From: Psychroflexus curvus
GTDB lineage: Bacteria > Bacteroidota > Bacteroidia > Flavobacteriales > Flavobacteriaceae
NCBI RefSeq assembly: GCF_020164585.1
Contig: NZ_JAIQZF010000003.1
Location: 186,001-250,000, forward strand
Reading direction: 5' to 3'
Length of the DNA: 64,000 nt
Under the pieces are notes generated by a model, which was given only the letters and a program-made list of their open reading frames with translations, had not been told where the DNA came from and made no database searches. The translations under genes were made by a program, and so were the position numbers. The first letter of the stretch is position 1; each line of letters starts with the position of its first letter. Below, in pieces: positions 32,583 to 36,321 of this stretch.

Positions 32583-33548
32583 TTAATTATCAAATGCTTT
32601 TATGATTTGCATCGCGACTCTTAAAGCTTCGGTGCCTTGTTCTAAAGTCACTATAGGTGTGGTGTTGTTTTCTATGGCTGTGGCAAAGGTTTCCAATTCG
32701 TCCAATATGGCATTGTTGGTTTCTACATCCGGATTGTCGAAGTAAATCTGTTTTTTGACACCTTCCGCATTTTGAAGTATCATCGCAAAATCATCCGGCT
32801 CTTTTGGGGCGTCTTTCATCTTTACCACTTCAGTGACTTTCTCCAGAAAATCCACCGATACATACGCATCTCTTTGAAAAAAGCGTGATTTACGCATATT
32901 TTTTAAAGAAATTCTGCTGGCAGTGAGGTTGGCTACGCAGCCATTTTCAAATTGAATTCTGGCATTGGCGATGTCGGGAGTTTCAGAAATAATGGAAACA
33001 CCGCTGGCCTTGATGTTTTTAACTTTGGATTTGACCACGCTCAAAATCGCATCGATATCGTGAATCATCAAGTCCAAAACAACAGGAACATCGGTGCCAC
33101 GAGGATTAAATTCAGCCAGACGATGAGATTCGATAAACATCGGGTTGTCGATTTTATCGATCGCTGCTCTAAAGGCAGGGTTAAAACGTTCCACATGACC
33201 CACTTGCCCTTTAACTTTATAGTGTTTGGCTAAATCAATCAGGCTTTCTGCCTCTTTTACGGTTGAAGTAATAGGTTTTTCTATGAATACGTGAACACTT
33301 GCTTTTATAGCTTGTTCCGCCATAATGAAGTGGTTGGTGGTAGGTGTGACGATGTCGATCACATCTACTTCCTTAAGCAGGTCCTCGTAATTTTCAAAAT
33401 ACCGATAGCCAAATTCTTTTTCAATAGCTAAGGCATGTTCTTTATTTGTATCGTAAAATCCAACAAGTGAATATTTCTTGGATTCGTTGAGCAATCTCAG
33501 GTGAATTTTACCCAGATGTCCAGCTCCCAAAACACCGACTTTTAGCAT
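32583..33548 (-). CDS. Gfo/Idh/MocA family oxidoreductase
   Basis: NAD(P)-binding oxidoreductase. The N-terminal KVGVLGAGHLGKIH is the dinucleotide loop, VFIEKPIT contains the catalytic EKP motif, and VGHVERFNPAF lies in the C-terminal domain. I chose the ATG at 33548 (MLKVGVLG), giving 321 aa. The open frame extends upstream to 33674, but a -7 promoter box sits at 33567-33574 inside that extension, and the added residues do not belong to the family. The substrate is unknown; the first gene of a four-gene operon. Confidence 0.88.
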   Translation of the reverse strand: MLKVGVLGAGHLGKIHLRLLNESKKYSLVGFYDTNKEHALAIEKEFGYRYFENYEDLLKEVDVIDIVTPTTNHFIMAEQAIKASVHVFIEKPITSTVKEAESLIDLAKHYKVKGQVGHVERFNPAFRAAIDKIDNPMFIESHRLAEFNPRGTDVPVVLDLMIHDIDAILSVVKSKVKNIKASGVSIISETPDIANARIQFENGCVANLTASRISLKNMRKSRFFQRDAYVSVDFLEKVTEVVKMKDAPKEPDDFAMILQNAEGVKKQIYFDNPDVETNNAILDELETFATAIENNTTPIVTLEQGTEALRVAMQIIKAFDN

Positions 33549-33566
33549 AAATAGTATGATTTTACA

Positions 33567-33574
33567 CAAAAGTA
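33567..33574 (-). promoter_or_regulatory. -7 box for the Gfo/Idh operon
   Basis: On the minus strand this is TACTTTTG, matching TAnnTTTG, 18 bp upstream of the chosen ATG at 33548. It rules out the longer upstream reading of that gene. Confidence 0.5.
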
Positions 33575-33704
33575 ACATTTCTTTTTTAGTAATACCGACC
33601 TTAAGAAAGCTTATAGAAATTCTTTTAGAGTCTGTTACCTGACTAAGCTTTAATATCCTATTCTTAAACACCAAATTTTAAAGATTCATTTTTTAGTTGG
33701 CAAT

Positions 33705-33873
33705 GGATTGTTGAACAAAAGAATCTGAAGGATTCAAATGTTTATAGAAAATGACATTGAATTTAATGCGACCCCTGTCGGGGTCGAACAAACCTGGCGT
33801 ATAATTTCTATATATATTTAATCCCTTCAGGATTAAGAAAAACAAATAGTTAGCAGGAATGGGTTGTCTGCAC
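33705..33873 (+). repeat. Copy 0 of the ~165-bp palindromic unit (upstream of the transposase)
   Basis: A full unit: head GGATTG...GAATCTGAAGGATTC, a central hairpin CGACCCC-TGTC-GGGGTCG, an AT-rich right arm ending CCCTTCAGGATT, and a ~45-bp linker to the next unit. It has a 2-3 base difference in its head (GGATTGTTGAAC). The tail is the variant found again only at the far end of the array. Confidence 0.9.
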
Positions 33874-33907
33874 GGATTGAACAAAAGAATCTGAAGGATT
33901 CAAATGT
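33874..33907 (+). repeat. Unit head fragment directly upstream of the transposase
   Basis: 34 bases identical to the head of the full units, then the sequence departs into the transposase leader. The same 34 bases recur at 34436-34469, where they encode the C-terminus of the transposase, so the transposase body is bracketed by direct repeats. Confidence 0.9.
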
Positions 33908-33972
33908 CATTAGCAAAATTCAAGATAAATCTTTAGCTTTAAGGTATTTAAGTAGGTGATTTTTTTAACAAA

Positions 33973-34482
33973 ATGAAAAAAATGGCAGCTGGAACATTTA
34001 CGCAAATTTATATACAGATTATTTTTGCTGTTCAAGGCAGAGTAAGTTTAATAAACCCTGATTGGGAAGGAGAACTTTATAAATATATGTCTGGTATTGT
34101 CAGAAATAAAGGTCAAAAAATGTTAGCTATCAATGGTATACCCGATCATATTCATTTACTGATTGGGATGAAACCCTCCTGTTGCTTATCAGGTTTGGTA
34201 AGAGAAGTGAAAAAATCATCCAATACATTTATCGCAGAAAAAAAATTTACAAAATATCCCTTTGCCTGGCAGTCAGGTTACGGGGCATTTTCATACAGTC
34301 ATTCCTCACTTGGCAATGTTATTGCCTACATTAATAACCAAAAAGAACACCATAAAATGAAATTGTTCAAAGATGAATATAAATTGTTTTTGACTAAGTT
34401 TAATATCGAATACAAAGACGATTATTTGTTTGAATGGATTGAACAAAAGAATCTGAAGGATTCAAATGTTTATAGAAAATGA
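33973..34482 (+). CDS. Y1 (IS200-like, REP-associated/RAYT-like) transposase
   Basis: Single-strand HUH-type transposase of the Y1_Tnp family, 169 aa. The two metal-binding histidines are in PDHIHLLIGM (HIH, about residues 57-66), and the catalytic Tyr is probably in the helix AYINNQKEHHK (about 118-128). Preceding features (FTQIYIQIIFAVQGR) match the family. It is short like IS200/RAYT enzymes, with no accessory TnpB. The last 15 codons are the head of the repeat unit (WIEQKNLKDSNVYRK). A start at the second Met (34-residue spacing not affected) is also possible; I kept the first ATG. Confidence 0.88.
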   Translation: MKKMAAGTFTQIYIQIIFAVQGRVSLINPDWEGELYKYMSGIVRNKGQKMLAINGIPDHIHLLIGMKPSCCLSGLVREVKKSSNTFIAEKKFTKYPFAWQSGYGAFSYSHSSLGNVIAYINNQKEHHKMKLFKDEYKLFLTKFNIEYKDDYLFEWIEQKNLKDSNVYRK

Positions 34483-35380
34483 CATTGAATTTAATGCGAC
34501 CCCTGTCGGGGTCGAACAAACCTGGCGTATAATTTCTATATATATTTAATCCCTTCAGGATTGAAGAAACAAATAGTCAGCAGGAATAGGATTGTTTGCA
34601 CGGATTGAACAAAAGAATCTGAAGGATTCAAATGTTTATAGGAAATGACATTGAATTTAATGCGACCCTGTCGGGGTCGAACAAACCTGGCGTATAATTT
34701 CTATATATATTTAATTCCTTCAGGATTAAAGAAACAAATAGTCAGCAGGAAGGGGATTGATTGTATGGATTGAACATAAGAATCTGAAGGATTCAAATGT
34801 TTATAGAAAATGACATTGAATTTAATGCAACCCTGTCGGGGTCGAACAAACCTGGCGTATAATTTCTATATATATTTAATCCCTTCAGGATTGAAGAAAC
34901 AAATAGTTAGCAGGAATGGGATTGATTGTATGGATTGACCATAAGAATCTGAAGGGTTCAAATGTTTATAGAAAATGACATTGAATTTAATGCGACCCCT
35001 GTCGGGGTTGAACAAACCTGGCGTATAATTTCTATATATATTTAATTCCTTCAGGATTAAAGAAACAAATAGTCAGCAGGAATGGGATTGATTGTATGGA
35101 TTGAACAAAAGAATCTGAAGGATTCAAATGTTTATAGAAAATGACATTGAATTTAATGCGACCCTGTAGGGGTCGAATAAACATAGCGTATAATTTCTAT
35201 ATATTTAATACCTTCAGGATTAAGAAAAACAAATAGTTAGCAGGAATGGGTTGTCTGCACGGATTGAACAAAAGAATCTGAAGGGTTCAAATGCATATAC
35301 CAAGTGCATGATAAATGTAATACGACCCTGTTAGGGTCTAACCAATATATAATCTCCTGTGGATTGAACCATAGAACAGT
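34436..35380 (+). repeat. Tandem array of ~165-bp palindromic units (five full, one decayed)
   Basis: Unit starts at 34436, 34602, 34767, 34932, 35098 and 35261, giving periods of 166, 165, 165, 166 and 163 bp. Units 1-5 are nearly identical; the sixth decays after about 35290 and ends near 35380. Each unit has a central GACCC/GGGTC hairpin and outer arms that are inverted copies of each other. Unit 1's first 47 bases are also transposase coding sequence. There are no unique spacers. Confidence 0.92.
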
Positions 35381-35436
35381 TGATTAATGAAAGAATCTAA
35401 GAACAGCTGAATTTTTAACATTAAAAACACCAACTT

Positions 35437-35802
35437 ATGACCACCGCAAATTTTAACGAGGACCAAATTTTTAGCAATAAAATAGTGACAAAAGTGATTT
35501 TAGAGTCAGAGTTCTCCAAAGAAATCCGGATTCTATTAGCTTCAGGGCAAGTGATGAAGGAGCATCAAAGTAAATTCCCGATTATGATTCACCTGCTGGA
35601 TGGAGCGATAGATTTGGGTGTTGAACGAGTGTCACATAAACTTAAGAAGGGTGACATAATAGCGTTAAAAGCAAATGTTCCTCATGATTTATCTGCTACA
35701 AAAGATAGTGTCATCCGTCTTAGCTTATCAAAGTCAGATAGTGTTGAGCGTGTAACTACTGTTGCAGAAGATTCTGAGAAGAGAGAACACAAGAACATTT
35801 GA
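35437..35802 (+). CDS. Small cupin-domain protein
   Basis: A 121-aa single-domain cupin. The pattern MIHLLDGAIDLGVE, KLKKGDIIALKANVPHDLSA (about 45-88) gives the conserved G...G...P-H of the second cupin motif. The first-motif metal ligand appears as KEHQSK rather than a double-His HxH, so metal binding may be weak. The function is unknown; cupins of this size are often linked to redox or metabolite sensing. It stands alone downstream of the transposon array. Confidence 0.72.
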   Translation: MTTANFNEDQIFSNKIVTKVILESEFSKEIRILLASGQVMKEHQSKFPIMIHLLDGAIDLGVERVSHKLKKGDIIALKANVPHDLSATKDSVIRLSLSKSDSVERVTTVAEDSEKREHKNI

Positions 35803-35924: not shown

Positions 35925-36321
35925 GACTTAAACCCTAACACTTACGAAAAGGTCGATACCAAAAGGATTGTGACCAATCTACCCGATGACGGCTCATTGG
36001 CGGCGAATGTTATGTATGAAGAAAACTGGCTGAAGGCAGAATATCGCTTGAATCCAAAATTCAAAGGTTTACTAACTCTCATGACCAGTAGTGCTTATGA
36101 TAACATCAAAACCGACAAAAACTACTTAAGAACAAGTTATGGCGTTATACCAACCGTTTATTACATTCCTTTTAAAGACATTGATGTTCAATTTTCTTAG
36201 CTTATATTGGCAGGTATTATGATTACTCTAAGTATTCAACTGATAATTTGAATGTGGCCAATTACTTTAAAAATGAAGTAAGAGTTGGCATTGGCATTAA
36301 GGCTTCTTTAGCATTGCTGTA
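35925..36321 (+). pseudogene. Decayed 3' end of an outer-membrane beta-barrel gene
   Basis: An open segment from 35925 (NPNTYEKVDTKRIV, then ENWLKAEYRLNPKF and RTSYGVIPTVYYIPF) stops at 36200, but the alignment-like pattern continues in another frame (GRYYDYSKYSTDNL, then NEVRVGIGIKASLALL) to a stop near 36321. Alternating hydrophobic/aromatic strands and the terminal strand resemble the last strands of a porin. A frameshift near 36190 plus no start suggest a remnant. The family assignment is tentative. Confidence 0.45.

Follow-up and report, generated by a model that had tools for sequence, protein, structure and literature searches.

A tandem array of three-hairpin, REPIN-like units around a Y1 transposase gene of Psychroflexus curvus, and its counterparts across Bacteroidota

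The transposase and its array

The window, a 64,000-nt stretch of the Psychroflexus curvus genome, carries an intact open reading frame (ORF) for a 169-aa Y1/HUH transposase (33973-34482, plus strand) that is set within a tandem array of three-hairpin units. One unit lies upstream of the gene, and five near-identical units plus one decayed unit follow downstream. Sequence, ORF, TRF and repeat calls were concordant (TRF period 165, score 1471) and confirmed the transposase and the array as a first-pass annotation had described them. The same annotation had proposed a palindromic unit of about 165 bp. The 165-nt period stands, made up of a unit body of about 114 nt and a spacer of about 52 nt; the unit itself holds three hairpins, not one palindrome.

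On the plus strand, the repeated DNA begins with an end that resembles the spacers in sequence (33703-33720, ..GAACAAAA). The upstream unit body u0 (33721-33834) follows, composed of a hairpin with its tail, a central palindrome and an inverted tail with its hairpin; behind it lie spacer s0 (33835-33886) and, as recognized by eye, an extra forward hairpin with an altered tail (33887-33913), then unique DNA 5' of the gene. Downstream come unit bodies u1 (34449-34562), whose first hairpin overlaps the end of the ORF, u2 (34615-34727), u3 (34780-34892), u4 (34945-35058) and u5 (35111-35221). Pairwise identities among u0-u5 range from 91 to 100% (91-93% for u5), and the decayed unit u6 (35274-35381) shares 68-70% identity with the other bodies. 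Body u0 equals u1 over all 114 nt, and its spacer s0 is identical to s5. Since the usual stop after ..LFEWIE is absent, the window ORF runs into the first downstream hairpin, and this lost stop could reflect decay of the gene. The array is unlikely to be an assembly artefact, an objection anticipated in the first-pass annotation, because it lies inside a 434-kb contig, its spacers differ between units and the loci of relatives are arrayed as well. Beside the array (35970-36200) we noted a short ORF without Pfam match, perhaps a gene remnant.

The enzyme matched Pfam Y1_Tnp with 80.3 bits (cut-off 23), showing the motif order P-D-H-I-H, and passed the NCBIfam IS200/IS605 model (58.3 bits, cut-off 55). 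Its signature reads H59-I-H61, W99-Q100 and Y119-x3-Q123-x2-H126-H127. In the protein alignment that gave profile A2 (the window enzyme and 27 of 80 relatives' loci), H59, H61, W99, Q100, Y119, Q123, H126 and H127 are invariant in all 28 rows and D58 occurs in at least 90%. The AlphaFold model (mean pLDDT 80.7) had its best solved-fold matches in the TnpA proteins of IS608 and ISDra2, and the E. coli TnpAREP structure 4er8 was a weaker match at rank 30. The enzyme had initially been taken for a RAYT; this was rejected, as the NCBIfam model REP_Tyr_transpos, whose cut-off is 80 bits, gave 21.4 and GTAG is missing. Passages of Quentin et al. 2018 (PMC6006769) describe TnpAY1 subclass 1.2 by the motifs DH[IV]H, WQ and Y---Q--HH, a length of about 150 aa, occurrence in Bacteroidetes and low copy number, and judged by these sequence motifs the window enzyme is a subclass 1.2 protein. 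The same passages mark the subclass as REP 'no' and as generally free of the typical terminal secondary structures of IS200. The REP entry is a description and not a protein criterion, and we therefore still place the window protein in subclass 1.2.

The P. curvus genome encodes three Y1 genes in all, and the other two are divergent from the window gene. One, on contig C30 (L162 4433-4885), carries the Y-x3-Q-x2-HH signature and is flanked by GCCCC/GGGGC hairpins. The other, on C4 (L163 4351-4917), is RAYT-like (NHLH, YIHQNP) and is flanked by CACGATT..AATCGTG hairpins. Thus, the genome has three Y1 genes and three hairpin types. With tblastn (E 1e-5) we found no match to the enzyme in 50,697 phage records. 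Among plasmid records 9 of 72,556 matched, two of them from Bacteroidota; the matches on Acaryochloris plasmids were weak (27% identity).

Anatomy of the unit

Each unit consists of three stem-loops in the pseudo-symmetric order '>', M, '<'. The '>' element has a 5-6 bp stem and a short loop (a GNA triloop), followed 3' of the hairpin by AA and the tail ATGTTTATAG; in u1 it occupies 34449-34475 on the plus strand, with the hairpin GAATC-TGAAG-GATTC. M is the palindrome CGACCCC..GGGGTCG (34497-34514 in u1, non-polar) midway between the two inverted hairpins, and '<' (34536-34562, minus strand) repeats the design of '>' on the opposite strand. By virtue of its two inverted REP-like elements ('>M<'), the unit has the architecture of a REPIN. 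The units nearest to the gene in 48 loci measured less than 170 nt in 43 cases and 111-126 nt in 41, and in these 41 units the gap from '>' to M was 20-26 nt and that from M to '<' 20-27 nt.

The stems covary. When units were anchored on the tail and CGACC alone and no stem was demanded, 90.6% of six stem positions were paired among 55 loci, compared with a mean of 63.0% and a maximum of 70.3% after shuffling arms among loci. We set aside a first covariation count on alignment A1 (which omits two of 43 units, L040 and L067, longer than 160 nt, and five loci whose nearest unit measures at least 170 nt), because the scanner had required perfect stems and the count was partly circular. The tails are conserved as sequence. 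Covariation between them was weak at most (11-213 of 500 shuffles attained the five measures), and the claim that they pair as a conserved helix was dropped.

Three-base loops were polar: GNA outnumbered TNC by 126 to 2 among 166 '>' loops and, read on their own strand, by 89 to 5 among 132 '<' loops, while the loops of M showed no polarity (57 to 51 of 193). Loops mirrored in this way are easier to reconcile with an enzyme that can read either strand in single-stranded form than with a single RNA. The sequence d(C-GAA-G) forms a very stable hairpin in single-stranded DNA. The motif GT[AG]G is absent from the 5' foot of the hairpin, where A was the commonest base at all four positions (0.33-0.56; 54 first downstream hairpins aligned). 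Guide-sequence pairing in the manner of IS608 was set aside, as this 5' foot is without conservation. Each of four units, when folded as single-stranded DNA, scored better than its shuffled versions (z -3.9 to -7.1), and the structure model recognized both strands of u1, with 96.7 bits for the given strand and 84.7 bits for the other. A search of Rfam returned two sub-threshold matches in the window (33500-35500) and only a tRNA in eight loci; on this result, a known RNA family was rejected for the units of these regions.

Linkage to one enzyme clade and occupancy of sites

The surroundings of 80 relatives' genes were analysed; these are the best 80 of 93 confirmed relatives, so that the sample was chosen for closeness to the window enzyme. 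For some MAG contigs, the organism name (Bacillota, Omnitrophota, Falkowbacteria) may be due to misbinning. Within 1 kb of the genes we found 169 '>', 147 '<' and 203 M elements, compared with 3.6, 2.7 and 0.7 in dinucleotide shuffles and with 14, 8 and 8 in 258 kb scanned more than 2 kb away. A unit feature occurred within 1 kb in 78 of the 80 loci, within 300 nt downstream in 67 and within 300 nt upstream in 29. Whole '>M<' units were present in 47 loci (48 if interruption by the gene is allowed), and in 35 loci a TRF array that contained two or more unit features lay no further than 1.5 kb from the gene. In 30 of the 74 intact loci the first '>' begins no more than 30 nt from the stop. Model-free k-mers placed ATGTTTATA just downstream of 40 of the 80 genes and in none of 70 far controls. 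The suspected tie between such units and such transposases holds phylum-wide, and the units are organized like a REP-type substrate.

Enzymes with M nearby are almost wholly confined to one clade. This clade comprises 81 rows (SH-aLRT 97) of a quick 105-row tree in which 48 of 101 inner branches fell under 80 and from which seven of the 80 loci were omitted (six with broken ORFs, one with N). M lay within 1 kb in 74 rows of the clade and in one of the 24 rows outside it (L136). Simpler hairpins extend further: they stood beside the gene in 24 of 27 other loci, the remaining three, from the same genus, having none or one. In 22 loci of a phylum sample outside the clade, flanking hairpins (stem of at least 5 bp) were found in all 22, at 46 in 5.5 kb upstream (8.4 per kb) and 41 in 5.7 kb downstream (7.2 per kb), versus 22 in 25.9 kb far away and 0.49 per kb after shuffling. 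Plus-strand loops prevailed upstream (27 to 5, 7 unclear) and minus-strand loops downstream (23 to 4, 6 unclear), so these hairpins tend to face across the gene. Among five further genes scanned, the C30 gene of P. curvus and L186 (genome G585) had flanking hairpins and L196 had a single one, downstream; within 200 nt of the genes of L194 and L195, which belong to the same genus, no perfect hairpin was detected. By eye, imperfect GGGC/GCCC palindromes can be seen at L194-L196.

At the genome level, covariance model R1 (up to 12 candidates scored per genome) detected units in 33 of 296 Bacteroidota genomes. Protein profile A2 matched 134 genomes at E <= 1e-10, the weakest of which may represent other Y1 subclasses. 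Thirty of the 33 unit-positive genomes were also enzyme-positive at this threshold; G319, G470 and G487 were not. All seven genomes whose best enzyme match reached at least 250 bits, P. curvus included, held units, a line that was drawn after seeing the table. A profile match lay within 1 kb of a unit in at least 14 of the 33 genomes (G000, G416, G309, G314, G428, G406, G409, G327, G329, G417, G449, G524, G351 and G370); in the other 19, none of the matches listed did. The reciprocal rule considered in the first-pass annotation, units in every genome with the enzyme and vice versa, does not hold, since 104 of the 296 genomes were enzyme-only and three unit-only. When 40 of these 104 genomes, those with strong enzyme matches, were searched again with more candidates, one marginal unit emerged (E 6.6e-4), and the three-hairpin unit thus belongs to one clade and not to the subclass. 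Outside the close clade, the presence of the enzyme and the presence of units imply each other in neither direction. Units in genomes lacking the transposase had been named in advance as evidence against the link, and this was borne out in part: three unit-positive genomes had no profile match at E <= 1e-10, and a match is listed near a unit in at least 14 of the 33. Because the close-clade link stays strong, we read the other units as orphan copies and not as a refutation.

A search of the P. curvus genome with one 165-nt DNA unit (E <= 0.001), a check suggested at the outset, gave no copy outside the array, with eight of eight matches inside it. Related units did appear with the structure-plus-sequence model, which revealed a second array of three on contig C1 (C1:19602-20293; L161 5603-6294). 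This array has a 292-nt period and different stems, and it lies between PemK/MazF-like and sigma-factor-like ORFs (named by eye); no transposase was found in the 12 kb read. Further repeats were observed in passing. In G583, of the same genus (L187-L193), units are scattered over many contigs, most of them short; M is there and '<' is often eroded, as judged by eye, and this 90% complete genome gave no enzyme profile match. G409 (L197-L203) contains near-identical units of 102 nt that are dispersed and have a different type of stem (AACCAC..GTGGTT), and at its locus L202 an enzyme gene broken by a stop stands beside one different unit. A different repeat family around GCCTGCCTTTGTCAGCAGACAGGC is present in several copies on P. 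curvus contig C32 (C32:83937-84541; L217 about 890-1510); the site is intergenic and measures 13-107 bp in three relatives, and L161 contains a stretch that looks similar.

The gene left of the window array is present in 11 of 12 relatives. A comparison of presence and absence at the site, as proposed earlier, was informative: the element is absent from seven of seven same-genus genomes that have the left gene (of eight same-genus genomes). Their homology to the window ends at 33548-33635, and the seven stretches contained no R1 unit (best chance match E 0.55) and no enzyme profile match; in G174 homology resumes at 35415, with unrelated DNA between. The sister species G585, whose sole enzyme is L186 of another clade, carries two window-like solo units. 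The first is 80% identical over 204 alignment columns to a window unit plus spacer and terminates inside the next hairpin, and the second is 75% identical over 131 columns. At both loci, R1 had no match in four of four relatives (G000, G174, G586 and G589), and at the second one G000 has a different repeat with weak 37-49-nt matches to the G585 stretch. Clean empty sites were sought in relatives and none was obtained, the flanking intergenic DNA being too diverged. These comparisons show that the occupancy of sites varies within the genus, which insertion and loss fit alike. With the element missing at the site in seven of seven genomes and solo units elsewhere in a sister species, the pattern is suggestive of mobility.

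Interpretation and known systems

We consider it quite probable that the array consists of REPIN-like, non-autonomous units that serve, or once served, the neighbouring Y1 transposase as single-stranded DNA substrate. Each unit would present two inverted copies of one recognition element, a GNA-triloop hairpin with the 3' tail ATGTTTATAG. On the model of IS608/ISDra2 and TnpAREP, the enzyme may bind this hairpin on an exposed single strand, for example at a replication fork, and the tyrosine may then cut in or beside the conserved tail. The segment bounded by two recognition elements could thereby be moved or copied. Reinsertion beside existing copies, followed by slippage or unequal recombination of near-identical units, would yield the tandem array. 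What the sequences show directly is how the units are built, that their stems covary, that their loops are strand-polar, that they are linked to the enzyme phylum-wide and nearly restricted to one clade, and that site occupancy varies in the genus. Binding, catalysis by cleavage, movement and the origin of the tandem, with the respective shares of transposase and recombination in it, are steps that we infer; the label 'self-amplifying', applied in the first-pass annotation, is not supported.

The reading that competes best is that the host alone made the tandem by slippage or unequal recombination, and that the transposase merely seeded one copy or was domesticated, with the hairpins serving another task. 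We lean against it and regard it as a genuine possibility. It is in line with the gene-less array on C1, with its three units at a 292-nt period, and with the shared body and spacer sequences of u0/u1 and s0/s5, as expected from recombination among repeats. Copies of the gene's 3' end point the same way. The last codons of the gene recur, at 13 of 14 nt, where the window spacers end, and the array units of L030, L031 and L040 hold such copies too, so some amplification took a longer piece that starts in the 3' end of the gene. A 24-nt test recovered such copies in three of 75 loci (L030, L031 and, probably by chance, L074, where the copy lies 2.3 kb away) versus 0.2 for control segments, and a 14-nt test in five of 57 (the window, L030 and L040, with L025 and L055 at 12 of 14 nt only) versus 0.28. 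This points to a longer segment having been duplicated, as happens in recombination. Longer-segment copies fit local reinsertion beside the gene and slippage plus recombination alike. However, a tandem made by the host alone leaves unexplained why a near-identical architecture stands beside one enzyme clade phylum-wide, and why the positions of solo units differ between sister species.

An ordinary IS200-type insertion sequence with duplicated end sequences would account for the NCBIfam IS200/IS605 match and the TnpA fold, yet we hold it to be improbable. The ends of IS608 are two same-strand hairpins, which an inverted '>'/'<' pair with a central palindrome does not resemble; since the other two Y1 genes are divergent, the genome has no second near-identical copy, and the phage and plasmid records gave no match and nine matches, respectively. 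Very doubtful, finally, is a role of the units as structured RNA, be it as transcript-end stabilizers or as transposase regulators, instead of as DNA substrates: the folds that beat shuffles (computed for single-stranded DNA) and the 30 loci in which the first hairpin abuts the stop codon would suit it, but a single transcript has no need of mirror copies whose GNA loops sit on opposite strands, solo and orphan units occur at a distance from the gene, and Rfam yielded nothing beyond two sub-threshold matches in the window stretch and a tRNA in eight loci. The strand scores are not decisive on this point, since the structure model recognizes both strands, with more bits for the given one.

A wider reading comes close to an even call, its odds slightly lowered by the three same-genus relatives that lack clear hairpins. 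Subclass 1.2 may be a separate, Bacteroidota-wide lineage of REPIN type with its own REP class (a GNA-triloop hairpin with a 3' ATGTTTATAG-like tail and no GTAG), which would have adopted hairpin proliferation separately from class 2 RAYTs and in which one clade added the central palindrome and, often, tandem arrays beside the gene. The novelty lies in the lineage of the enzyme, in a hairpin design that has a 3' tail and no GTAG, and in the central palindrome, at phylum-wide scale. In the open-access literature we found no earlier description of these units; a motif-string match in a Bacteroidota paper (PMC3646045) proved, in the matching passage, to be a PCR primer. A Y1 group described in 2018 as without IS properties and REPs appears to gain a defined partner DNA, and short oligonucleotides therefore allow a direct test of the biochemistry of these proteins. 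Cleavage by the enzyme would mean that REPIN-like systems exist in a second Y1 lineage under other rules, namely a 3' tail and triloop polarity versus a 5' GTAG. This would help to split the essentials of repeat spread from historical features.

Among known systems, IS608 and ISDra2 share with the window enzyme the fold and the catalytic motifs, and their recognition of a hairpin next to the cleavage site is the analogy used above. They differ in that no multi-copy autonomous element was seen here and the hairpins are inverted, not on the same strand. REPs beside Y1 genes of Bacteroidetes are already known for subclasses 2.4 and 2.6, according to passages of PMC6006769. TnpAREP of subclass 2.6 is from the same phylum and has atypical hairpins flanking the gene, but it has its own motifs (YIH[QN]NP), and it is the C4 gene of P. 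curvus that has that look.

The REPIN/RAYT systems, such as those of Pseudomonas fluorescens SBW25 and the REPtron of E. coli, are alike in the inverted hairpin pair, the clusters beside a Y1 gene and tandems that include flanks, as far as the passages concerned describe them. In SBW25 there are tandem repeats of near-identical REPINs including their flanks, and REPIN clusters beside RAYTs, according to a section of PMC3116915; the contrast with short, dispersed REPs drawn in the first-pass annotation was therefore overstated. For Marinomonas, part of PMC8266576 describes a concentration close to the gene, and the length of our units is similar to the REP doublet spacings of 71 and 110 bp given in these two sources. 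In contrast, the window enzyme is of another Y1 lineage, and its units lack the 5' GTAG, carry their motif 3' of the hairpin and possess an extra central palindrome. Dispersed copies of the window unit were not found in its own genome, which has one related array, on C1.

The closest relation is to subclass 1.2 itself, whose published motifs, as given in the relevant passages, the window enzyme carries. Departing from that description, hairpins flank nearly all loci examined here. The REP search reported in PMC6006769 required, in the passage that describes it, GTAG or GTGG and a basal stem no shorter than 7 nt, and such a search would miss the hairpins described here.
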